In this document: positions 3,141 through 29,872 of the stretch, in pieces
How the letters are laid out: every line of letters starts with the position of its first letter
How positions within the stretch are numbered: position 1 is the stretch's first letter
Source: an uncultured Nitrospirales bacterium
GTDB lineage: Bacteria; Nitrospirota; Nitrospiria; Nitrospirales; UBA8639
Reading direction: 5' to 3'
NCBI GenBank assembly: GCA_958295805.1
Contig: OY282373.1
Span: 1,149,001 to 1,213,000 of the forward strand
DNA: 64,000 bases
The notes under the pieces: generated by a model
What the model saw: only the letters and a program-made list of their open reading frames with translations
Databases searched by the model: none
Told to the model about the DNA's origin: nothing
Made by a program: the position numbers and the translations under genes

Positions 3141-4316
3141 ATGAAAGTTTTACACATTATCGTTAGCATGGCACCAGAATATGGAGGGCCTGTGCTGACC
3201 GTGTCGGGACTGGTGTCGGCTTTGGCGCAGGAGGGTATTCACTGCGAAATTTTCACGACTCTCTGGAAAAAAGATAGTGCCGATGCAATGCCGTCTTGTA
3301 CTGTTCCAATCAACCGATTCGATGTGGAATTCTCGTCGCGTTTCTGGCTCGGTTATTCGAAGAGTCTGACCAAAACACTTTGGGACAGAATAGGAAGTGG
3401 TGCTTTTGATCTTGTTCACGTCCATGAACCTTGGCACTACCCGGGATTCGTAGCATTCCGCGGCGCTTGTAAACAGGGCATTCCTTATGTTTTGAGTCTC
3501 CACGGTGCGCTTGAAGCATGGTGTCTTAGGCAAAAGGCATTCAAGAAATGGGTATATATGAGGATGATTCAGGGTCATATTCTGAAATTCGCCGATGCCC
3601 TTCATGCACTTACAAACGAGGAGATGAAGCAGATCTCCGAACTTGGATACAGGACTCCTGTTTTTATCGCTCCCAACGGAGTCGATTCGTCACAGTTCGA
3701 GTACTTGCCTGATATATCGGAGTTCTTGGCGGCGTACCCGGAGTTGTCGGGCAAGCGCGTGATCCTATTTATAGGGCGCTTGCATAAAAAAAAAGGGCTA
3801 GATGTGCTTGCGCGAAGCTATGCGAGCCTATCGCACAAGTTCAAGAATGTTGCGTTGCTGGTCGCAGGACCGGATGAAGACGGCACCCAAAAAAGAATGG
3901 AATCGATTCTGAAGACATCATCAGCTTTACGCGGTACCGTATTCACCGGCATGTTGACAGGTAAGGACAAGTTGGCAGCACTGGCGTGCGCTGATTTGTT
4001 CGTCCTGTCCTCCTACTCTGAGGGATTCAGCGTGGCAGTAATTGAAGCCTTGGCGGCTGGATTGCCCGTGGTTATCTCCAGACAATGCAACTTCCCTGAA
4101 GTATCTGAACACAATGCAGGATTCGTCGTTGAACCAGATGATATGGCTGTGACTGAGGCAATCAGCACGTTGCTGTCAGACGACCAACTTCGCGCTCGCA
4201 TGGGACAGAATGGTCGGAATCTGGTGAGGGAAAAGTACACTTGGAACGCAGTCGCCGCGTCAATGGCTGGCCTTTATCGAAAGTTGGTCGCCCGGCGGTC
4301 TACAAAACAAAAATAG
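3141..4316 (+). CDS. Glycosyltransferase family 4
   Basis: This 391-residue GT-B enzyme is of the common group 1 type. MKVLHIIVSMAPEYGGP opens the acceptor domain with the glycine loop typical of GT4. The donor domain has VILFIGRLHKKKGLDVLARS near residue 205 and the signature SYSEGFSVAVIEALAAGLPVV near residue 295, with the EGFSVAVIEA acidic motif intact. It ends 3 bases before the next gene, so the two are probably co-transcribed and translationally close. It would add one sugar to the growing glycan on the cytoplasmic side. Confidence 0.9.
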   Translation: MKVLHIIVSMAPEYGGPVLTVSGLVSALAQEGIHCEIFTTLWKKDSADAMPSCTVPINRFDVEFSSRFWLGYSKSLTKTLWDRIGSGAFDLVHVHEPWHYPGFVAFRGACKQGIPYVLSLHGALEAWCLRQKAFKKWVYMRMIQGHILKFADALHALTNEEMKQISELGYRTPVFIAPNGVDSSQFEYLPDISEFLAAYPELSGKRVILFIGRLHKKKGLDVLARSYASLSHKFKNVALLVAGPDEDGTQKRMESILKTSSALRGTVFTGMLTGKDKLAALACADLFVLSSYSEGFSVAVIEALAAGLPVVISRQCNFPEVSEHNAGFVVEPDDMAVTEAISTLLSDDQLRARMGQNGRNLVREKYTWNAVAASMAGLYRKLVARRSTKQK

Positions 4317-4319
4317 GAT

Positions 4320-5489
4320 ATGGACTACACGAACACACCGCTCTGGTTCCGGATCCGCAAGGTCCTTCGCTACGTACGCATGTACGGAATATCTAAAACT
4401 CTGGCCAAAGTGCGTGGACAATACCACAGGCACGCCCAATACGATGCGCTTCCCAATTGTGAGCAGATGCCCTCCGACGGGCGCCATGTGGGGATAATCG
4501 GTTGCGGTAATTTTGCCTTCAGCACTATCGCCTACTATCTGAACAAGGCAGTGGGGCCGGTTTTGCGCGGCGTTATGGACATCGACATTCACCGGGCTGC
4601 GTCGCTGTTCAAGCACTACCGGGCGGCTTATTACACGACGGATGCGGAAGAAGTGCTGTCCGACCCGGCAATCGACTTGGTCTTTATAGCCTCAAACCAC
4701 GCCAGCCATGCAGATTACGCCATTGCCGCCATTAAGGCCGGTAAGGCCGTCCACATTGAGAAACCACATGTCGTCAACGAAGACCAGTTGCGCCGCCTGT
4801 TAGCAACCGCAGACGTCGCTGAGAATGTCCGCATCAGGCTTGGGTTCAACCGCCCCTTCAGTCCCCTCAGCCGACACTTGCTGGCAGCCATGGACACTCA
4901 AGAAGGCACGAGTATTATTAACTGGTTCGTGGCTAGCCACAAACTTGGTCGGGACCACTGGTATTTGCATCCGGCTGAGGGTGGTCGCGTACTCGGTAAC
5001 CTGTGTCACTGGACGGATTTCAGCTTGCATATGATTCCCACTGGAGGACGCTATCCGATCCGCATTATCCCGGGAAGGGCAGAGAGGAGCGACTGCAACA
5101 TCGCCGTGTCCTTCGTGTTCGGCGACGGGTCGATCGTAGCCATCACGTTCTCTGAGAAGGGCGAACCCTTCGAAGGCGTACACGAACAACTCCATGTCCA
5201 CAAGGGAGATATTCTGGTTTCGATGGCCAATTTTAGCGAATTGGTGATCGAAAACATGGAACGCAAGAATCGTTTTCGACCACTGTTTCGACAGCACGGC
5301 CACAAACAGGCCATTCTCGCGAGTTATGGCATGAGTGAGCGCGGGGGCAACGCACCGGGCGTTGAGATTGGATACGTGCGCCAAACCGCCGAGCTCTTCC
5401 TCGCGACCCGTGCAGCTCTTGAAGCCGACCGGGAGATCGTGCTGGACTCCTCCGGTATCGAATCGGTGAAAGCTTCTGCTCCCTACTAA
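4320..5489 (+). CDS. Gfo/Idh/MocA family oxidoreductase
   Basis: This 389-residue NAD(P)-dependent dehydrogenase carries the Rossmann loop VGIIGCGNFAFSTIAYYL at about residues 58-75, preceded by a roughly 55-residue extension of unknown role. The family motif around the substrate lysine appears as VHIEKPHV near residue 145, and a later segment resembles the C-terminal alpha/beta domain. The C-terminal half of the fused oxidoreductase two genes downstream belongs to the same family, so the pair may act on one sugar-nucleotide route. Its TAA (5487-5489) lies inside the first copy of a duplicated gene start. Substrate unknown. Confidence 0.85.
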   Translation: MDYTNTPLWFRIRKVLRYVRMYGISKTLAKVRGQYHRHAQYDALPNCEQMPSDGRHVGIIGCGNFAFSTIAYYLNKAVGPVLRGVMDIDIHRAASLFKHYRAAYYTTDAEEVLSDPAIDLVFIASNHASHADYAIAAIKAGKAVHIEKPHVVNEDQLRRLLATADVAENVRIRLGFNRPFSPLSRHLLAAMDTQEGTSIINWFVASHKLGRDHWYLHPAEGGRVLGNLCHWTDFSLHMIPTGGRYPIRIIPGRAERSDCNIAVSFVFGDGSIVAITFSEKGEPFEGVHEQLHVHKGDILVSMANFSELVIENMERKNRFRPLFRQHGHKQAILASYGMSERGGNAPGVEIGYVRQTAELFLATRAALEADREIVLDSSGIESVKASAPY

Positions 5490-5523
5490 AACAAATTTTT
5501 CAATCCTATCGAATCGGTAATCT
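5482..5523 (+). repeat. Diverged duplicate of the start of the downstream oxidoreductase gene
   Basis: Bases 5482-5523 align without gaps to 5847-5888, the start region of the gene at 5851. About three quarters of the positions are identical, including a 13-base exact core, and most differences are transitions. Read in the matching frame, the first copy encodes KQIFQSYRIGNL against KQILQSYRTGEL in the real gene, so the similarity is at protein level too. The first copy has no start codon and does not continue as that gene. It looks like the stub of a homologous gene, now separated by the DUF2442 remnant. Confidence 0.7.
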
Positions 5524-5556
5524 CAGGTGCCTGAACACCTCCCTTGGAGTAAGCGT

Positions 5557-5806
5557 ATGCCGATACCCAGAGTGCTTTCAGTTATTCCCATAGGTGATCA
5601 TACTTTGCTAGTGGAATTTCATAATCGCGAGAAAAGGAAGTATGATATCACGCGATTGCTTAAAAAAGATATGTTTGCTCCTCTTAAAAAATCCTGCACT
5701 CTTTAAGTCTGTCCAAGTAGAAAAAGGAGGGTATGCCGTGTATTGGAATAGCGAAATTGATATAAGCGAATACGAATTATGGCGTCATGGGCAGCCCTTG
5801 TCGTAA
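5557..5806 (+). pseudogene. DUF2442 family protein, frameshifted
   Basis: An ATG at 5557, 10 bases after GGAG (5545-5548), opens MPIPRVLSVIPIGDHTLLVE, a typical DUF2442 start, but it stops at 5704-5706. In another frame the family sequence goes on: NPALFKSVQVEKGGYAVYWN, then DISEYELWRHGQPLS, ending with TAA 5804-5806. The frames join at a run of six A residues (about 5687-5692); five would restore an 82-residue protein. DUF2442 proteins are small and often linked to toxin-antitoxin pairs. No partner is visible. It could be a dead gene, a sequencing error in the A run, or a slippage site. Confidence 0.75.
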
Positions 5807-5850
5807 CAAAAGCATCGATTGAACTCCCTTACAGCAAAAGCTATTGCATA

Positions 5851-8022
5851 ATGAAGCAGATTCTCCAATCCTATCGAACCGGTGAGCTGTGGCTTGCCGA
5901 GGTGCCGGTGCCCGCGTGTGGGCGGGGTGGCGTGCTGGTCCGAACGCGATCCAGCGTGGTTTCAGCCGGTACGGAGGGGATGTTGCTGGCGCTTGCCAAG
6001 AAGAGCTTACTCGGCAAGGCGCGGGCGCGTCCCGACTTGGTTAGACAAGTGCTCAAGAAGGCGCGGGTCGAAGGGATCAAGCCTACGATGGAGAAGGTCT
6101 TTGCCAAGCTGGATGAACCTTTTGCGTTGGGCTATTCCGCTGCCGGCGACGTCGTCGAGGCCGGGCGCGAGGCCGTCGGACTGAAGCCCGGTGACCGCGT
6201 GGCAATGGCCGGGATGGGCTACGCGGCCCACGCCGAGTTCAACTTCGTTCCCGCAAACCTGTGCGCGAGAATACCCGAGGGCGTCTCCTATGCGGACGCT
6301 GCCTTTGCAACCGTCGGCGCGATTGCGCTCCAGGGCGTGCGCCAAGCCCAACCCCTGATCGGCGAGCGCGTCGCGGTCATCGGTCTGGGGCTGCTCGGTC
6401 TGTTGACCGTGCAGATATTGAAAGCCAACGGCTGCGCCGTGTTAGGCGTTGACCTTGATGAAGAACGGGTGGCACTGGCCGAGAAGTTGGGCGCCGACAT
6501 TGCGGTGAGTGCCGATCCCGAAAGAGCTTGTGAGGCGTTCACCGGCGGGTGCGGCGCCGATGCCGTCATCATCACCGCTGCCACGCCCGGCAACGAACCA
6601 ATCGAGAACGCGGCTGAGATGTCGCGGCACAAGGGGCGGGTGGTTGCCGTGGGGCTGGTTGGCATGAACGTGCCGCGAGATGCCTTTTTCCGCAAGGAAC
6701 TTGACCTGCGCCTGTCAATGTCCTACGGCCCGGGCCGTTATGATCCTGCTTATGAAGAAGGAGGACACGATTACCCCTTCGCGTATGTGCGCTTTACCGA
6801 GCAGCGTAACATGGAAAGTTTCCTGTACTTGGTGCAACGGGGCAAGGTGACGCCGGCGGCGTTGGTGACGCATCGCTTGGCTTTCGACGACGCGCTTGAT
6901 GCGTATGCCTTGATAGAGGGCAAGTTGCCCAAAGACAGCACGCTCGATTCCAAGTATCTCGGGGTTCTGTTCGAGTATTCGACGGACGCGCCGATGGAGC
7001 GCACGGTGTGCCGTTACGACGCGGTCGGTTTGGCCGGCAAGGAGGTCGGCGTGGGCTTCATCGGTGCCGGTAACTTCGCCAAAGGCATACTGTTACCGCA
7101 TCTGACTAAACTGAGCGGCGTCAGACTGACGGGTGTCTGTACCGGCACCGGCAAGAGCGCACAGCAGACGGCACGGCATTTCAACTTCGGGTTGGCGACA
7201 ACGGATCCGGCGGTGTTGCTCGCGCAGGACGAAACCGATGTCGTGTTCATCGCCACGCGCCACGGTAGCCATGCTTCTCTGGTCAGTGCGGCGTTGCGCG
7301 CCGGCAAGCACGTCTTCGTCGAGAAGCCGCTTTGTATCCATGAACCTGAACTTGACGAGATCGAACAAGCACTCAAGGATGCTCGTGATGCCGGACAACA
7401 GCCGTGTCTGATGGTCGGTTTCAACCGTCGGTTCTCGCCCCACGCGCGTGAGTTGCAAGTTGCGTTCAAGGACCGTAAGACCCCAATGGTGGTGAACTAC
7501 CGGATCAATGCCGGGAGCATTCCGGTTGACAGTTGGATTCACGATCCCAATGAGGGTGGCGGGCGCATCATTGGCGAAGTCTGCCACTTTGTGGATTTTT
7601 GCACGGCACTGATCGGTAGCGAACCGGTGACGGTAACGGCCAATAGCATCTCCTCGGATCGACGCGACGTTGTGGCGGAAGATTCCGTCGTCATCACCAT
7701 CCAATACATTGACGGCTCACTGGCGACCATTCAGTATTTGGCCGAGGGTCACAAGGACCTTCCAAAGGAGCGTTGCGAGGTGTTTGCAGACGGCAAGAGC
7801 GCGGTCATGGACGATTTCCGCACAACCCAATTCTATGGCGGAGGCAAGAACGTTCGCGGCAAGCAGACCAAGGGCTTTGCAGAGGAACTGCACACGTTTC
7901 TCAACGTGTGCCGCGACGGTGGGGCATGGCCCATATCCTGGCAGACTATGGTCGGCACACATCGGGTGTGCTTCGGGGCGATGCACAGCCTTGAGACCGG
8001 CAAGAGGGTCAATATCATGTAA
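5851..8022 (+). CDS. Bi-domain oxidoreductase: zinc-type alcohol dehydrogenase plus Gfo/Idh/MocA
   Basis: This 723-residue protein fuses two dehydrogenases. Residues 1 to about 375 form a medium-chain dehydrogenase without the structural-zinc cysteine set, with the nucleotide loop VAVIGLGLLGLLTVQILKAN near residue 175. From about residue 395, VGVGFIGAGNFAKGILLPHL opens a Gfo/Idh/MocA domain with HVFVEKPLCIHEPE. I start it at ATG 5851 because MKQILQSYRTGELWLAEVPVP is the usual family start; a longer reading frame from 5779 only overlaps the DUF2442 remnant. Such fusions are common beside heparinase-like lyases in exopolysaccharide clusters, as here, and probably convert a sugar nucleotide or sugar acid. 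Confidence 0.88.
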   Translation: MKQILQSYRTGELWLAEVPVPACGRGGVLVRTRSSVVSAGTEGMLLALAKKSLLGKARARPDLVRQVLKKARVEGIKPTMEKVFAKLDEPFALGYSAAGDVVEAGREAVGLKPGDRVAMAGMGYAAHAEFNFVPANLCARIPEGVSYADAAFATVGAIALQGVRQAQPLIGERVAVIGLGLLGLLTVQILKANGCAVLGVDLDEERVALAEKLGADIAVSADPERACEAFTGGCGADAVIITAATPGNEPIENAAEMSRHKGRVVAVGLVGMNVPRDAFFRKELDLRLSMSYGPGRYDPAYEEGGHDYPFAYVRFTEQRNMESFLYLVQRGKVTPAALVTHRLAFDDALDAYALIEGKLPKDSTLDSKYLGVLFEYSTDAPMERTVCRYDAVGLAGKEVGVGFIGAGNFAKGILLPHLTKLSGVRLTGVCTGTGKSAQQTARHFNFGLATTDPAVLLAQDETDVVFIATRHGSHASLVSAALRAGKHVFVEKPLCIHEPELDEIEQALKDARDAGQQPCLMVGFNRRFSPHARELQVAFKDRKTPMVVNYRINAGSIPVDSWIHDPNEGGGRIIGEVCHFVDFCTALIGSEPVTVTANSISSDRRDVVAEDSVVITIQYIDGSLATIQYLAEGHKDLPKERCEVFADGKSAVMDDFRTTQFYGGGKNVRGKQTKGFAEELHTFLNVCRDGGAWPISWQTMVGTHRVCFGAMHSLETGKRVNIM

Positions 8023-8105
8023 TTCGCGTTATGGCACGCGTGTTGCGTGGGCCAACACTCAAATCTACCTTGTCATTTTTGTGAAATCTGTCAAGGAGGT
8101 GCATC

Positions 8106-9524
8106 ATGAATAAAATAATACTCTTTGAACTGAACGAAGTACCATTCCGAGTCATCGACTATTTTTGCCAGATCAATCCCCATTCCACACTGGCACGCCT
8201 TATGCCCTCGTTGCATCAATACGAGAGTTATTCGGAAGATGTGTCTTCACTCTCGCCGTGGAAGACTTGGCCAACTGTGCATCGCGGCGTGATCGATGGA
8301 AAACACTTCTTGCACGATTTCGGTCAGGATTTGACCGAGGTCGACAAAGTTTATCCTCCGCTATGGAAAACTTTGACGCAAAACGGTATCAAGAGCGGGG
8401 TCTTTGGCAGCCTGCACACCTATCCGCTACCCGAACCACTCGAGAACTACACGTTTTATTTTCCGGATACTTTTGCTGCGGGGTCCGAGTGCTTTCCGGA
8501 TGTGCTGTCAACCTTTCAGGCTTTCAATCTCGAGATGGCCAGAGAATCAGCGCGTAATGTCTCGAGACGTGTGCCATGGAAGTCGGCGATGAATGTCATT
8601 GCCAAGAGCCCAGACTTGGGACTAAAGGTTAGTACGTATGGAAAAGTCGGCAAGCACCTCATCTCCGAATGGTCTGACGGGTGGAAAAAAACGCGCAGGC
8701 GTACGTATCAAGTGGTGCTCGCGTTCGATATCTTTATGAAACAACTCAGGTCAACCAAACCAGCATTTGTGACGTTTTTTACGAATCATGTGGCGTCGTC
8801 AATGCATCGTTATTGGGCAGCTTGTTTTCCAAAAGATTACGATGAATTTGAATTTCCAGACGATTGGGTAAACACCTATTCGAAAGAAATTGATTTTGTC
8901 ATGAAGAAATTCGACGAAATGTTCAAAGTACTCGTCAAATTTGTAGATCGCAATCCCGAGTACGTTTTGTGGATCAGTTCGAGCATGGGACAGGACGCGA
9001 CGATCGCAAAGCCTTTGGAGACACAACTTTACATCAAAGATCGCGATAAATTTATGTCACAACTCGGGGTAGAAAAATCCCATTGGGAGGCAAAGCCATC
9101 AATGCTCCCGCGCTACAATTGTTTTGTGAACGAGGCGAAGGCAAAAATTTTTAGGGACAATCTGAGGTCCCTTTTAGTGGACGGTGCTCCTGTGGAGTGG
9201 GCAGAGGCGGAGAAATGTTTTTTTATGCTTAAGCTTGGACACGAAAATCTTTACGAGAAATCGCAATCCGTGTGGATGGGCGGCAGAGAAATTCCGTTCG
9301 ACTCAATGGGACTTGAAAATACGCCAATTGAGGACAAGGCGAACACGACCGCTTACCATATACCGAGCGGTGTGCTCCTCATCTATAATCCCAAGTCGGC
9401 AAAACTCCCTCAAAAAGAAAGATCGAGGCCGCAGGTATCGACGCTTGAGATCGCTCCGACGATCCTGAAAAATTACGCCGTTCCAGTGCCGGATTATATG
9501 AAAACTCCTGTGCCGATTGGGTAG
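8106..9524 (+). CDS. Alkaline-phosphatase-fold protein (nucleotide pyrophosphatase/phosphodiesterase-like)
   Basis: This 472-residue protein starts MNKIILFELNEVPFRVIDYF after a strong AAGGAGG site (8095-8101). The FELNE opening and the later SSLSPWKTWPTVHRGV segment (near residue 55) match the pattern of alkaline-phosphatase-superfamily proteins found in glycan clusters, where a metal-binding Asp/Glu near the N-terminus precedes a Thr/Ser nucleophile loop. Central HVASSMHRYW and WISSSMGQD fit further metal or product-release loops. No signal peptide is seen. A role in adding or removing a phosphate-linked substituent is possible but not shown. The DNA is AT-richer than its neighbours. Confidence 0.6.
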   Translation: MNKIILFELNEVPFRVIDYFCQINPHSTLARLMPSLHQYESYSEDVSSLSPWKTWPTVHRGVIDGKHFLHDFGQDLTEVDKVYPPLWKTLTQNGIKSGVFGSLHTYPLPEPLENYTFYFPDTFAAGSECFPDVLSTFQAFNLEMARESARNVSRRVPWKSAMNVIAKSPDLGLKVSTYGKVGKHLISEWSDGWKKTRRRTYQVVLAFDIFMKQLRSTKPAFVTFFTNHVASSMHRYWAACFPKDYDEFEFPDDWVNTYSKEIDFVMKKFDEMFKVLVKFVDRNPEYVLWISSSMGQDATIAKPLETQLYIKDRDKFMSQLGVEKSHWEAKPSMLPRYNCFVNEAKAKIFRDNLRSLLVDGAPVEWAEAEKCFFMLKLGHENLYEKSQSVWMGGREIPFDSMGLENTPIEDKANTTAYHIPSGVLLIYNPKSAKLPQKERSRPQVSTLEIAPTILKNYAVPVPDYMKTPVPIG

Positions 9525-9564
9525 CGGTTTTGACGTCGTATAATCCGTTTGCAAGAGTTCATAT

Positions 9565-11301
9565 ATGAGCATCATTTTGGGAATCAACGCATTCCACGCG
9601 GGCGCGGCTGCCGCCTTGGTCATCAACGGCGAACCCGTAATCGCCATTGCAGAGGAGCGGCTCAACAGAGTGAAGTACTATGCTGGCTTTCCCGCGCTTT
9701 CCATTCAACGGTGTCTTGATTACGCGGGGTTGACCTTTTCGGATATAGACGCGGTGGCCATCGGTCGCGACAAATCAGCCAATCGAGTTCAGAAACTCAC
9801 CTATGCTGCACAACGCCCCGGTAAACTCCTAAACTTCGTCAAGTTGCGGTCAGCGCGATCAGCACTGGACGACATCAGGAGTCAGATAGTCCATCACTGC
9901 GGCGTGAATCGGGACCAGCTCCGCTTCGAGCAGTACAATGTCGAACATCACCTGGCCCACACCGCGAGTGCCTATTTCATCTCACCATGGGAGCAGGCGA
10001 CGGGGCTGACGGTAGATGGTTCCGGCGATTTTGCCACTTGTTTGATGACCGAATGCGTGGGGGCCGAAATCAAAATCAAGCACCGCATCTACGTGCCGCA
10101 GTCACTTGGGTCGCTGTACACGATGGTGTGCGAATTTATTGGTTATAACCGCTATGGCGACGAGGGCAAGGTGATGGGCTTGGCACCTCTGGGGGATGAC
10201 GTGTATCGGGATACGTTCGTCGATATGATCGAAACGACCTCCGCCGGCATGCGTTTGAACCTGAAATACTTCCGGCCATTCGGTTCCAATCAGGGAATCT
10301 CTATCGCCGACGATGGTACGATGAAACTGGCTCGGCACTATTCGGACGAAATGGTAAAGCGATTTGGTGCCCCCCGGCGACGCGGTGCAGAGATCGCGCA
10401 GCGTGACCAGGATCTCGCATGTAGCCTACAAGCGCGTTTCGAGGATGTCTATATGCATCTGCTTCGCCTGGCCCATCAGAACGCGCCGAATGATCGCGTT
10501 TGCCTCGCGGGCGGCTGCACGCTCAACAGCGTGGCCAACGGCAAGCTGTTTGACGAGACCCCATTTAGGGAGACGATGATTCAACCGGCTGCGGGAGACG
10601 ATGGTCTCGCCCTTGGGGCAGCTCTCTATGTGAGCAATTCGATAAAAAAAGAGGGCAGGCGGTGGGTGATGTCCAACGCATTTCTGGGGCCGGAGTATTC
10701 GCACGAGACGATGAAGCGCGTATTGAAGGACAGAGGAATCGCCTATCGTAAGCTAAACCGCGATGAACTTCTCAACGAGACAGCCGAAGAGATCGAACGC
10801 GGGTGTGTCGTGGGTTGGTTTCAGGGCCGCAGCGAGTGGGGACCGCGGGCCTTGGGGAATCGTTCTATCCTTGCACATCCCGGTCTGCCTGACATGAAGG
10901 ATGTCCTCAATGCGCGCATCAAGCATCGCGAGGCATTCAGGCCGTTCGCTCCTGCGGTCCTCGCAGAAAGGCAATCCGAAATATTTGAACGCGATCATCC
11001 ATCCCCATTCATGCTACACGTCTATAAAATTCGCTCCTCGTGGCGTGAGCACCTGTGCGCCGTCAATCACGTCGATGACACGGGGCGTCTCCAAAGCGTG
11101 TCACGCGAAGATAACCCACTTTACTATGATCTCATTCGGGCATTTGAAGCGCGAACCGGTATCCCGGTCATTCTCAACACCAGTTTCAACGAGAATGAAC
11201 CAATCGTTGAGCACCCGGCCGAGGCGGCTGAGTGCTTCATCCGCACGAAGATGGATGTGCTGGTGCTCGGTCCCTACTTCTGCCGTAAGGGCGATTCATG
11301 A
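9565..11301 (+). CDS. Carbamoyltransferase, NodU/CmcH family
   Basis: This 578-residue protein matches the two-domain O-carbamoyltransferases that make carbamoyl-adenylate from carbamoyl phosphate and ATP and transfer the carbamoyl group to a hydroxyl. The N-terminal actin-like domain starts MSIILGINAFHAGAAAALV and includes HHLAHTASAYFISPW and YGDEGKVMGLAPLG. VCLAGGCTLNSVANGKL lies near residue 315. The C-terminal YrdC-like domain has WFQGRSEWGPRALGNRSI and FRPFAPAVL. The cytoplasmic acceptor is probably a sugar of this cluster. Its TGA overlaps the next ATG by four bases (ATGA, 11298-11301), so the pair is translationally coupled. Confidence 0.92.
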   Translation: MSIILGINAFHAGAAAALVINGEPVIAIAEERLNRVKYYAGFPALSIQRCLDYAGLTFSDIDAVAIGRDKSANRVQKLTYAAQRPGKLLNFVKLRSARSALDDIRSQIVHHCGVNRDQLRFEQYNVEHHLAHTASAYFISPWEQATGLTVDGSGDFATCLMTECVGAEIKIKHRIYVPQSLGSLYTMVCEFIGYNRYGDEGKVMGLAPLGDDVYRDTFVDMIETTSAGMRLNLKYFRPFGSNQGISIADDGTMKLARHYSDEMVKRFGAPRRRGAEIAQRDQDLACSLQARFEDVYMHLLRLAHQNAPNDRVCLAGGCTLNSVANGKLFDETPFRETMIQPAAGDDGLALGAALYVSNSIKKEGRRWVMSNAFLGPEYSHETMKRVLKDRGIAYRKLNRDELLNETAEEIERGCVVGWFQGRSEWGPRALGNRSILAHPGLPDMKDVLNARIKHREAFRPFAPAVLAERQSEIFERDHPSPFMLHVYKIRSSWREHLCAVNHVDDTGRLQSVSREDNPLYYDLIRAFEARTGIPVILNTSFNENEPIVEHPAEAAECFIRTKMDVLVLGPYFCRKGDS

Positions 11302-12365
11302 GTGATGGGATCAAGTCGAATTTGTCGTCTCTGTACCGCGTGTGGGAGGTGTCGTCCTTGCGCGGCTTTGCAATCGAATGGCTGTCGCCCGAGGGCGTCC
11401 TGTTGTCGAAGCGGAACATCCTTTACGAGGCCGACGGGATAGGTTGCAGTTCAATGCGCCGCGTTGGCGCAGTCTCCCGACCATTGTGGTGGTCACTTGC
11501 CATTCGCCGGCGTCTGGTGCAAAGGGCGTTGCGGCAGATGTTCTACAATGTCTTACCCTTGGCTGACGGTTCGATTTTTGTCACCTACGCCAGGGAAGTT
11601 GGGATATTCCGGGATGGAACCTATCACCGGCTAAAGGGACTCGTCCGGCCGTGCCGGGTATTGCGCGGGGCAGCCGCAGTCGCCGAAGACGGGCATGTCT
11701 TCTTCGGAGAATATCTGGACAACGCCGAGCGTGGGCCGATGCGGATATATCGGTACATTCCTGGCGATGAAGACGTCAGCGTGGTGTACACCTTCTTGCC
11801 GGGAGCCATCCGCCACGTTCACGGGGTCTATCACGACCCATTCGACCGCTGTCTGTGGTGTCTCACCGGTGATGTGGGGGAAGAGGCACGCATTCTGATT
11901 ACGGACGATGGCTTCAAGACGCTAGCGACGATCGGTTCGGGAGACGAAGGCTGGCGGGCGGTGAGCGTCCAGTTCACCCGCGATGCGGTCTGGTATGCCA
12001 TGGATGCGGAATTTACCCAGAACAAGGTGTTCCGCATCGATCGTGCAACGCGACAGCGTTCCGAAATAGGCGCGGTTGATGGCCCTGTCTATTATTCGAG
12101 CAAGTGGCGTGAAAACTTGTTCTTCGCCGTAACAGCGGAACTTTGCCCGAGTCAGGATGGACAATCGGCTACCCTTTGGACGGTCCATGATGGCGCATTA
12201 TCACGGGTGGTGAGTTTTGACAAGGATTGGTGGCCTGTGAAGTTGCTACCGGGGACATTGCACTTTCCACTTGGCCCCGGTGTTGAGGACGGTCTGTACT
12301 TCCAAGGTGTGGCTCTCGATAATGCCGATGCCCGATGCTTTTGCGTAGAACTTGACACAGGGTAA
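11298..12365 (+). CDS. Uncharacterised protein, possible beta-propeller
   Basis: This 355-residue protein is not one I recognise. It has repeated short beta-strand blocks with aromatic-Asp-Gly patterns, such as LADGSIFVTYAREVGIFRDG, VAEDGHVFFGEYLDN and ITDDGFKTLATIGSGDEGW, which resemble the blades of a beta-propeller of the sugar-lactone-lactonase or BNR type. There is no signal peptide or membrane segment. It overlaps the carbamoyltransferase by four bases and so is likely to work in the same step, perhaps binding a sugar substrate. The function stays unknown. Confidence 0.6.
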   Translation: MSDGIKSNLSSLYRVWEVSSLRGFAIEWLSPEGVLLSKRNILYEADGIGCSSMRRVGAVSRPLWWSLAIRRRLVQRALRQMFYNVLPLADGSIFVTYAREVGIFRDGTYHRLKGLVRPCRVLRGAAAVAEDGHVFFGEYLDNAERGPMRIYRYIPGDEDVSVVYTFLPGAIRHVHGVYHDPFDRCLWCLTGDVGEEARILITDDGFKTLATIGSGDEGWRAVSVQFTRDAVWYAMDAEFTQNKVFRIDRATRQRSEIGAVDGPVYYSSKWRENLFFAVTAELCPSQDGQSATLWTVHDGALSRVVSFDKDWWPVKLLPGTLHFPLGPGVEDGLYFQGVALDNADARCFCVELDTG

Positions 12366-13209: not shown

Positions 13210-13384
13210 AGACCTTTGCACAACCATCTTGCCCGCTGGCTCTTTCCGCTTTGGGAACGTCTCGCCCCCTCACACCAGCCCTCTCCCTCCAGGGGAGAGA
13301 GAGAATTTTCTTTTCCGTCATTCCCGTGTAAACGGGAATAACGGTGGCGAGTGTTGGCGCGGAGTCATTTGATTTTGCAAAGGT
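13209..13384 (+). mobile_element. MITE-like element with inverted ends, no gene
   Basis: GAGACCTTTGCA at 13209-13220 faces TGCAAAGGT at 13376-13384, an inverted pair about 155 bases apart. Between them are two hairpins: CTCTCCC/GGGGAGAG at 13281-13299, and a TTCCCGT-GTAA-ACGGGAA palindrome near 13321-13338. There is no reading frame of note. The left end overlaps the last base of the methyltransferase stop codon. A third copy of the same 12-base end, in the right-end orientation, lies at 18384-18395 after the palindrome array. The layout fits a non-autonomous miniature element, but no target duplication was established. Confidence 0.45.
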
Positions 13385-13857
13385 ATTGAGGATGTCAGAC
13401 TTGGTGTTTAGAAGTGACTGGGTGGATGGTGGCGTTATTGAGTGGGAGATTACGGCTGGATAATATATAGACTATTGGTATAATTCAGGCTATTTGGCAC
13501 TGGGAGAGTCGTTGGAGAAGGGATGGTACTGGAATGCTTGTGCCAGGGACGAAGGTAGGCGGACAGACTGCTTTATTTGTGCCTTGAAAACGGCCCTCCC
13601 CCTCACCCCGGCCCTCTCCCGCCAAGGGAGAGGGAGAGCGAAACGTTGTTCGTAGCTGCGCGATCTAATCGCCTCCCTGCTTGGCATACAGATGGGTAGG
13701 CGAGTGCGTGTGGCGTTCCACGAGGGGCGCCATGAGATGGCGCAGCTACGGCGGAACGGAAGAGAAGATATCAGAGGCCCCCAAACTCGACGTGGCGTTC
13801 AAGTGATGTGCTATCTTCTCGATACGAATGCTTTTGCATCACCTTTAGGATAGCTTC
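13385..13857. other. Gene-free interval with two palindromes
   Basis: No coding sequence is convincing here. At 13612-13634 a palindrome CCCTCTCCC-GCCAA-GGGAGAGGG is preceded by CCCTCACCCC; it is a single copy of the palindrome family that forms the array at 17984-18354. Further on, GTAGCTGCGC (about 13652) and GCGCAGCTAC (about 13736) are exact inverse copies, the second overlapping a GCGCCA-TGAGA-TGGCGC hairpin. These look like dispersed extragenic palindromes and mark this gap as a hot spot for repeats. Confidence 0.6.
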
Positions 13858-17983: not shown

Positions 17984-18354
17984 CCCTCACCCCGTCCCTC
18001 TCCCGTCAAGGGAGAGGGGGCAGGAAAGAGGACGGGCGCACCAAGTTTTTCCTCTCCCCTAGTGGGAGAGGGGCAGGAAAGGGAACGGACTCACCAAGTT
18101 TGCCCTCTCCCTTGGTGGGAGAGGAGGCAGGAAAGGGGACGGGCGCACCAAGTTTTTCCTCTCCCTTGGTGGGAGAGGGGGCAGGAAAGGGAACGGACTC
18201 ACCAAGTTTTCCCTCTCCCTTGGTGGGAGAGGGGGAAGGAAAGGGAACGGACTCACCAAGTTTTCCCTCTCCCTTGGTGGAAGAGGGGCGGGAAAGGGGA
18301 CGGGCGCACCAAGTTTTTCCTCTCCCCTGGTGGGAGAGGGGCAGGGTGAGGGGG
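17984..18354. repeat. Array of seven REP-like palindromes, 53-54 bp period
   Basis: Seven palindromes of the type CCTCTCCC-TTGGT-GGGAGAGG start at about 17997, 18051, 18104, 18158, 18212, 18266 and 18319. The period is strictly 53 or 54 bases. The links between them carry AGGAAAGGG, a variable GGACGGGCGC or GAACGGACTC block, and CACCAAGTTTT. The whole array is bracketed by inverted arms: CCCTCACCCC at 17984-17993 and GGGTGAGGGG at 18344-18353. Both strands are open to translation with repeated peptides, but this is a by-product of the repeat. It fills the gap between two convergent genes (17897-18432), where it may end transcription in both directions. Confidence 0.9.
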
Positions 18355-28391: not shown

Positions 28392-28512
28392 TCCGCGACG
28401 CATTTCGTACCCGCGCGTTCTGGAGTTTATCCAGAAGGTCACGCAGCCTGTGCATTCAATCCACGCGTCTCACCGTGTGTAAATTCTCGCCGACACCCCC
28501 TAACGACACTGA

Positions 28513-28627
28513 GACGCTTCTCTAACCGGCAAATGGTTTCTTGCCAGACCGACAATCAGACGCTATAGTAACCGGAAATTAGACGATCTTATAACCGTCA
28601 ATTAGACGCTTCTCTAACCGGCAAATG
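28513..28627 (+). repeat. Five tandem 23-bp repeats ending at the ATPase start codon
   Basis: Units start at 28513, 28536, 28559, 28582 and 28605, exactly 23 bases apart. The first and last are identical over 25 bases (GACGCTTCTCTAACCGGCAA and the next five); the third and fourth share GACG, TAACCG and AATTA; the second is badly decayed but keeps an ACCG core. The last unit ends on the ATG (28625-28627) of the ATPase gene, and the first carries a matching decoy ATG. The repeat looks like a set of protein-binding sites over the promoter and translation start. No clear sigma-70 pair was seen. Confidence 0.75.
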
Positions 28628-29872
28628 GTCTCTGACAAATCTCTCTATCCGCGCTTACTGATCCCCGTCATCCGCGAGGCTATGACGGACACGCCGGTGG
28701 TCTGCCTGCTCGGCCCGCGTCAAAGCGGCAAGACGACGCTTGCTCAAACTCTGGCACCGGATCGCGCTTTTGTCAGCCTGGATGAAAAGAGCTACTACAA
28801 GGTCGCCACGGAGGACCCCGTTGGTTTTGTTGCGAGCCTGCCGGATGCGGTGACTCTTGACGAAGTGCAGCGGGCGCCGGACCTGCTCCCTGCCATCAAG
28901 CGTGTCGTGGACCGTGACCGCCGTTCCGGCCGTTTCCTGCTTACCGGTTCGGCCAATTTATTGCTGCTGCCGAAAATCACGGAATCCCTCGCGGGACGCA
29001 TGGAGATTGCCCATCTGCAACCATTGACGGAGGCGGAAAAAATGCGCACGCAGGGCCGGTTCCTGAATGATTTGCTGGAAGGCGCCTTCGTGACCGGTAT
29101 CGAACCCGGGAGAAAGTCTGTAGGGCCAACGCTGGCGAAATTGTTGGTGGCCGGCGGCTATCCTGAACCGTTGACCCGCCCGTCCCACCGTGCTCGCCAA
29201 TGGCACCGACAGTATTTGCACAACATCATCGAACGGGACGTGCAGGACGTGACCCGGGTGAAAGACGGCCATGAACTGGCCCACTTACTGGAACTGCTGG
29301 CCCTGCGTAGCGCACAGTTGTTGAACGTCAGTAACCTGGCTCGTGATCTTGGCCTGCACAGGGAAACGGTGGAGCACTATCTCGCTGTACTCGAACGGCT
29401 TTTTCTTGTGCGGCGACTGCCCGCTTGGCACCGCAACAGGGCCAAACGACTCGTCAAATCGCCAAAAGTCCATTTGCTCGACAGTGGGCTTGCCGCGACC
29501 CTTGCCGATTTGACGGCTGGCGACTGGCTTGATGCACGAGACCGCATGGGGCATCTGCTGGAGTCTTTTGTGGTTCAGCAGCTCATTGCTCAAGCCGCCT
29601 GGACTGACCCCGACCTGCGTTTCTGGCATTATCGCGACAAGGATCGGATAGAAGTGGACGTGGTAATCAGCCGAGGCCGAAAGGTTTGGGGCGTCGAAGT
29701 CAAGGCTGCCGGTACGCTTTCATCCGGTGACGGGCGTGGGCTTGCCAGGTTGGCTGACTGCTGCGGCAAGGACTTTCAACGTGGCATCCTGCTCTATGCC
29801 GGCGAAGACCTTCTCCCTCTTGCGGATACACGCATGCTCGCGGTACCGCTGCGTGAACTGTGGGAGCGATGA
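28625..29872 (+). CDS. ATP-binding protein with AAA_14 and DUF4143 domains
   Basis: This 415-residue protein has the P-loop LLGPRQSGKTTLAQTLA at about residues 30-46, Walker B-like AVTLDEVQRAPDLLPAIK near residue 84, and the sensor-type LLTGSANLLLLPKITESLAG. The C-terminal half is DUF4143, with a winged-helix-like part (NLARDLGLHRETVEHYLAVL) and a nuclease-fold-like end, FWHYRDKDRIEVDVVI and VWGVEVKAA, reminiscent of a PD-(D/E)XK core (D...E-x-K). The family is widespread and its role unknown; some members are linked to mobile or toxin-like loci. It is a lone gene after the 23-bp repeats. Confidence 0.88.
   Translation: MVSDKSLYPRLLIPVIREAMTDTPVVCLLGPRQSGKTTLAQTLAPDRAFVSLDEKSYYKVATEDPVGFVASLPDAVTLDEVQRAPDLLPAIKRVVDRDRRSGRFLLTGSANLLLLPKITESLAGRMEIAHLQPLTEAEKMRTQGRFLNDLLEGAFVTGIEPGRKSVGPTLAKLLVAGGYPEPLTRPSHRARQWHRQYLHNIIERDVQDVTRVKDGHELAHLLELLALRSAQLLNVSNLARDLGLHRETVEHYLAVLERLFLVRRLPAWHRNRAKRLVKSPKVHLLDSGLAATLADLTAGDWLDARDRMGHLLESFVVQQLIAQAAWTDPDLRFWHYRDKDRIEVDVVISRGRKVWGVEVKAAGTLSSGDGRGLARLADCCGKDFQRGILLYAGEDLLPLADTRMLAVPLRELWER

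Follow-up and report, generated by a model that had tools for sequence, protein, structure and literature searches.

A decayed DUF4160-DUF2442 toxin-antitoxin module beside a copied oxidoreductase gene start in an uncultured Nitrospirales bacterium

The DUF4160 and DUF2442 families constitute the DhiTA toxin-antitoxin (TA) module of Dickeya dadantii; in this species and in Escherichia coli, overproduction of the DUF4160 protein is growth-inhibitory, an effect relieved when DUF2442 is co-expressed (PMC8198452, in its accessible portion). For the Persistence Enhancing Module of a Thermus plasmid, the available part of the report states that the plasmid yielded no transformants when the DUF2442 gene was missing but did yield them in the absence of the DUF4160 gene (PMC12724237); DUF2442 apparently neutralizes a toxic DUF4160 there too. 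The DUF4160-DUF2442 pair is also listed among the predicted TAs in the accessible part of a marine TA survey (PMC12654330), and TA systems are described on genomic islands (PMC5481352, likewise in part). Here we analyze a 64,000-nucleotide stretch of DNA (the window) from an uncultured Nitrospirales bacterium, whose genome is a single 2.9-Mb contig (OY282373.1). A small cassette between two oxidoreductase genes of sugar metabolism in the window is, as judged by sequence comparison, a dead relic of a DhiTA-type module with both genes broken. To our knowledge, the way in which lone chromosomal TA pairs without a mobility gene of their own spread is unsettled.

The window and a related locus of an uncultured Latescibacteria (contig OY282377.1, L039) resemble the D. 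dadantii system, as far as the accessible text of PMC8198452 describes it, in the two families involved, the toxin-first order, and genes that almost touch; the window copy differs in being broken in both genes. That portion of the paper makes no mention of a target duplication. The Thermus module contains DUF4160 and DUF2442 as the window does, but according to the available text it is plasmid-borne and functional, whereas the window holds a chromosomal relic.

With regard to the mode of insertion, the closest parallel comes from restriction-modification (R-M) systems, which insert with long, variable target duplications on the order of 100 bp (review PMC3874152, in the part available). As described there, these insertions resemble the window case in being solitary addiction modules with direct target duplications and no known mobile element linked, but they carry restriction-modification genes instead of a type II TA module. 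The review, by Mruk and Kobayashi, cites Nobusato (2000) and Furuta (2010), who reportedly described R-M systems inserted with a long target duplication. Insertion sequences also leave a direct target duplication at both ends (8-10 bp for IS1 and 4 bp for IS5, in the accessible portion of PMC3031569); however, theirs covers a few base pairs, in contrast to tens to a few hundred here, and neither a transposase nor a terminal inverted repeat was found here. A literature search yielded no report of a long target duplication for TA modules among the matches listed, subscription papers being mostly outside its scope.

The locus is best interpreted as the product of insertion followed by decay. In the common ancestor of the window and L039 clusters, a DUF4160-DUF2442 module would have inserted at the junction between a Gfo/Idh oxidoreductase gene and a bi-domain oxidoreductase gene (ox), duplicating approximately 36-52 bp of the ox start; a relic would have remained at the old junction, with an intact copy downstream of the module. 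The module would then have decayed in the window, where the toxin gene has lost 223 bp and the antitoxin gene carries a frameshift; comparison establishes these two changes, as well as the repeat, the identity of the module, and the filled and empty sites. We consider this history probable. Duplication and insertion would have been a single event, and loss of the toxin presumably preceded the frameshift of the antitoxin.

The first line of evidence is a direct repeat at the ox start. The Gfo/Idh/MocA-family gene upstream of the insert (4320-5489; Pfam GFO_IDH_MocA, E 2.5e-19) and the intact ox (5851-8022; zinc dehydrogenase and Gfo/Idh domains, Pfam ADH_zinc_N and GFO_IDH_MocA) are on the plus strand, as are all features of the locus given below. 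The best ungapped segment aligns copy 1 (5476-5527) with copy 2 (5841-5892) at an offset of 365, with 37 of 52 positions identical. Within it, a 12-codon core (5489-5524 and 5854-5889) is identical at 28 of 36 positions, and six of the eight differences are transitions. When the left flank was dinucleotide-shuffled 5000 times, the highest local score was 88, short of the 125 of the repeat. Across 60 shuffled versions of the whole window, with spacings of 20-600, the maximum was 111. Copy 2 contains the true start of ox (ATG at 5851); copy 1 lacks an ATG and extends over the stop codon of the upstream gene, and is therefore not a usable gene start. An initial annotation, which had recognized the duplicated segments with their mostly transition changes and taken the second as the true start, is thus upheld, and the similarity lies above chance. 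As copy 2 is intact downstream of the module, ox stayed whole.

Scores above that of the ox repeat occur in the real window only at repeat arrays, located near 18.0, 13.3, and 28.5 kb; a repeat of 21-bp period at 48.7 kb scores equally. The 18-kb array (17995-18353) is a tandem one, with units of about 54 bp in several imperfect copies. An imperfect direct repeat with a CCCTCTCCC-type motif (13241-13304 and 13574-13637) resembles it and is possibly a dispersed intergenic repeat, while overlapping repeats with spacings of 23-92 bp cluster at 28498-28633.

Between the two copies, alignment with L039 identifies the remains of both module genes. The L039 locus has the gene order of the window and, between Gfo/Idh and ox, encodes an intact 82-aa DUF4160 protein (66.4 bits) followed directly by an intact 82-aa DUF2442 protein (43.5 bits), the two genes being separated by 4 bp. 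At the orthologous site of the window, the DUF4160 relic (5527-5552) joins the first three codons (5527-5535) to the last 17 bases (5536-5552), and 223 bp are absent. The DUF2442 gene (5557-5806) is split over two frames, one matching Pfam positions 2-42 and the other 41-69; both matches fall under the family cut-off. It is one base longer than its L039 counterpart, with an A6 run at 5686-5691 where L039 has A5 and an open frame. A pair with both genes intact, as in a DhiTA module, is thus present in L039 and not in the window. The initial annotation was correct as to the break of DUF2442 at an A6 run, which it placed one base too far to the right (5687-5692), and as to a small cassette within a recombination scar; it had, however, seen a lone DUF2442 gene where the remains of a two-gene TA module lie.

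The frameshift might instead be a homopolymer sequencing or assembly error, with only the toxin truly lost, which would be compatible with insertion and decay. The indel is indeed a single base within the A run. Nevertheless, it is the sole clear frame-breaking indel in approximately 8 kb aligned to L039, despite 48 A6/T6 runs in the window. The remaining gaps listed are one of 2 bases in the spacer preceding ox, one of 6 bases, and a cluster (4814-4823) with a net sum of zero. Moreover, decay is expected of a toxin-less relic. An error is therefore possible, although we hold a genuine frameshift to be the likelier case.

No transposase-sized open reading frame (ORF) is found in the insert: the ORFs of at least 40 aa in 5490-5850 are the relic frames and ox only. 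Likewise, 5440-5900 contains no inverted repeat of at least 12 nt; L039 has one 12-nt inverted-repeat pair near the DUF4160 start, away from the two ends of the module. The insert thus lacks the hallmarks of a transposon or insertion sequence, a transposase gene and terminal inverted repeats. It resembles an insertion with long target duplication, as direct target repeats flank it and a related single-copy empty site exists. Apart from the own genome, the closest cassette in the phylum sample (G181) is 73% identical to that of L039 and lies at a different site, beside an M16 peptidase gene. When the own genome was searched at the DNA level with 5470-5860, the matches were confined to the locus, to copy 2 (E 0.15), and to a chance-level stretch of 22 bases (E 0.28), so that no second copy suitable as a donor was seen.

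The second line of evidence comes from relatives. A search of genome contigs with ox yielded 27 loci, the best of them 84% identical. In two loci on separate contigs of one metagenome-assembled genome (L046 and L040 of ERR2206779_bin.75), the Gfo/Idh gene runs straight into a single ox, with a 4-bp overlap of ATG and stop and no module between them. Since ox starts at the Gfo/Idh stop in these loci, copy 1 marks the ox start before insertion. Copy 1 of the window also matches, in register, the ox starts of six loci; of 1000 shuffles, none reached the score for five of them and three did for the sixth. For copy 1 of L039, which eroded separately from that of the window, the matches are weaker (0, 1, 1, 5, 22, and 25 per 1000 shuffles).

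The third line of evidence is that the same arrangement recurs at other DUF4160 sites. Searches for empty sites covered the dsbA, trpB, and L103 sites. At dsbA, four filled loci (L121, L122, L136, and L138) read copy, module, copy, and the empty L284 contains one copy of the 182-bp end, with no module match and no DUF4160 motif. At the gene that we read as trpB from its PALP match and sequence, two copies flank the module in L113, and in L355 and L359 the 63-bp end occurs once, with no module match. Hence, at three sites, including that of the window through L046 and L040, a single copy marks the empty state and a pair of copies the filled state. In L113, a 77-aa ORF (1051-1284) lies directly before the DUF4160 gene, within the duplicated flanks, and is possibly a third gene of that module. 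A reading of the L103 repeat as the start of a methyltransferase was dropped, since no Pfam family was matched at 1e-5.

Flanking repeats were surveyed at TA loci from one phylum search, in which 395 genomes from a larger group were covered and 226 had DUF4160. Among the matches listed, 130 DUF4160 matches, largely the best-scoring, were taken (30 as loci and 100 by coordinates). The first design comprised 147 loci (these matches, further collected loci, and L039); 46 with no usable module recognized were dropped, leaving 99 distinct modules. At a score of at least 100, a flanking repeat was present in 21 of the 99, against 0.27 expected from 4000 cross pairs; gapped comparison gave 28 of 99, against 8/123 within-flank controls and 2/300 cross-locus pairs. 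The second design was uniform, based on hit centers flanked on either side by 300 bp or more, and five of the 130 DUF4160 matches were too near a contig end for it. Direct repeats flanked 26 of 125 DUF4160 matches, 4 of 28 HicA, and 5 of 29 ParE (9/57 together), as compared to 2 of 155 non-TA places (cold-shock genes 0/28, Gfo/ox hits 0/29, and other places in ox loci 2/98). One repeat copy was the module-facing end of an adjacent ORF (at least 120 aa) in 14 DUF4160, two HicA, one ParE, and no non-TA cases. Against the non-TA places, Fisher p was 4e-8 for repeats and 8e-6 for gene ends with DUF4160, and 1.5e-4 and 0.019, respectively, with HicA/ParE.

According to Pfam, the genes with a copied end encode an S-adenosylmethionine-dependent methyltransferase (L111), a chorismate mutase-prephenate dehydratase (L078), a DsbA-like protein (L138), an alanine racemase (L082), an ABC ATPase (L180), a PALP enzyme (L113), an isochorismatase domain (L183), and, in the gapped set of the first design, an M16 peptidase (L067). 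The HicA/ParE loci with flanking direct repeats (L234, L235, L238, L247, L259, L262, L266, L280, and L281) have repeats of 50-244 bp.

Several observations weigh against insertion with target duplication, at the locus or in general. The repeat in the window is itself short and has eroded, and copy 1 of L039 matches its own copy 2 at just 23 of 36 positions, with a score of 70 that 1 of 1000 shuffles reached. Identity between the window and L039, computed per 150 bp over 3924-12025 of the window, is a mosaic. It amounts to 73-92% upstream and 75-91% in ox, as against 93-95% for the module and about 97% for the next gene (block 8087-9586); the values at fourfold sites are 0.65 for ox and 0.93 for that next gene. 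Such unevenness is, on sequence grounds, a sign of allelic exchange, and later recombination has therefore also touched the locus. In this region, 8106-9524 encodes a 472-aa protein with no Pfam match at E 0.01 that is 97% identical to its L039 homolog, the flanking proteins being 84% and 92% identical to their counterparts.

Because of this later recombination, a replacement, close to what the initial annotation had proposed, is kept at low weight. Here, the module and an ox block from another cluster would have replaced the native ox, with an illegitimate joint near codon 12 on the left and homology further right. Such an exchange would agree with the identity to L039, which is about 94% in the module, decreases to about 80% across the 5' half of ox, and increases to about 97% in the next gene. 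However, L039 shares the structure, so that the joint predates the mosaic; only one ox is present at L046 and at L040; and at the dsbA and trpB sites one intact neighbor is accompanied by a short duplicated segment, the empty sites of relatives being single-copy. The specific proposal that most of a second homologous oxidoreductase was replaced is not supported, in view of the last two of these findings and of the length of copy 1, just about 36-52 bp; the related genomes contain a version without the insert (L046 and L040), and no sign of a second oxidoreductase was seen. Replacement is thus improbable. Chance similarity between the Gfo/Idh gene end and the ox start is more improbable still: the poor match within L039, where copy 1 reads as the end of the Gfo/Idh frame, would speak for it, but none of the 5000 shuffles reached the score, the match is in register with the ox starts of several relatives, and copy 1 sits at the junction where their ox begins.

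With respect to the survey, the TA loci are those with the best hidden Markov model scores and no random sample. L121, L122, L136, and L138 represent one site, giving at most 23 independent sites of the 26 and at most 11 of the 14. Among the 15 DUF4160 loci from other genomes behind the named loci, which include the L039 site, one has a strong repeat, away from a gene end, in a test that misses short eroded repeats. The gene-end label comes from an automatic ORF rule, with part of the ORFs checked. Certain repeats have a dispersed or low-complexity appearance (L169, and L068 of the gapped first-design set), and the repeated piece of L103 recurs at several other genes, so that L103 is treated as weaker. 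The non-TA controls differ in kind from small horizontally acquired genes; the survey therefore leaves unproven any difference between TA modules and other small inserts.

As for the surroundings, the 5' cluster of the window contains, according to its ORFs and Pfam matches, a glycosyltransferase, the Gfo/Idh oxidoreductase, the bi-domain ox, and a carbamoyltransferase; it looks like a cluster for polysaccharide synthesis.

The most economical account of target-duplicating insertion is illegitimate: the two ends of a TA-bearing fragment would be joined to target DNA, replicated or broken, at different points. A gene would be destroyed where the insertion deletes target sequence, whereas insertions with a duplication could leave the neighbor whole and survive, after which addiction would hold the module in place. 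Modules may thus settle without a transposase, the survivors being those that left their neighbor intact. The local case is modest, and the recurring footprint is the interesting part: copied gene ends at related pairs suggest a transposase-free route by which these pairs may become established in chromosomes. Whether solitary chromosomal type II TA modules (DhiTA, HicAB, and ParDE) commonly enter in this way, duplicating tens to hundreds of target bases and regenerating an intact neighbor, with a mobility like that of R-M systems, we regard as about evenly balanced. The signature, which consists of an intact gene end, a relic copy across the module, and a single copy in empty relatives, would make it possible to orient and count insertions and perhaps to date them, and offers a direct way of testing whether TA pairs move like restriction-modification systems. 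The window would represent a late stage of this process, with the toxin gene deleted, the antitoxin gene broken, and the duplicated target still legible.

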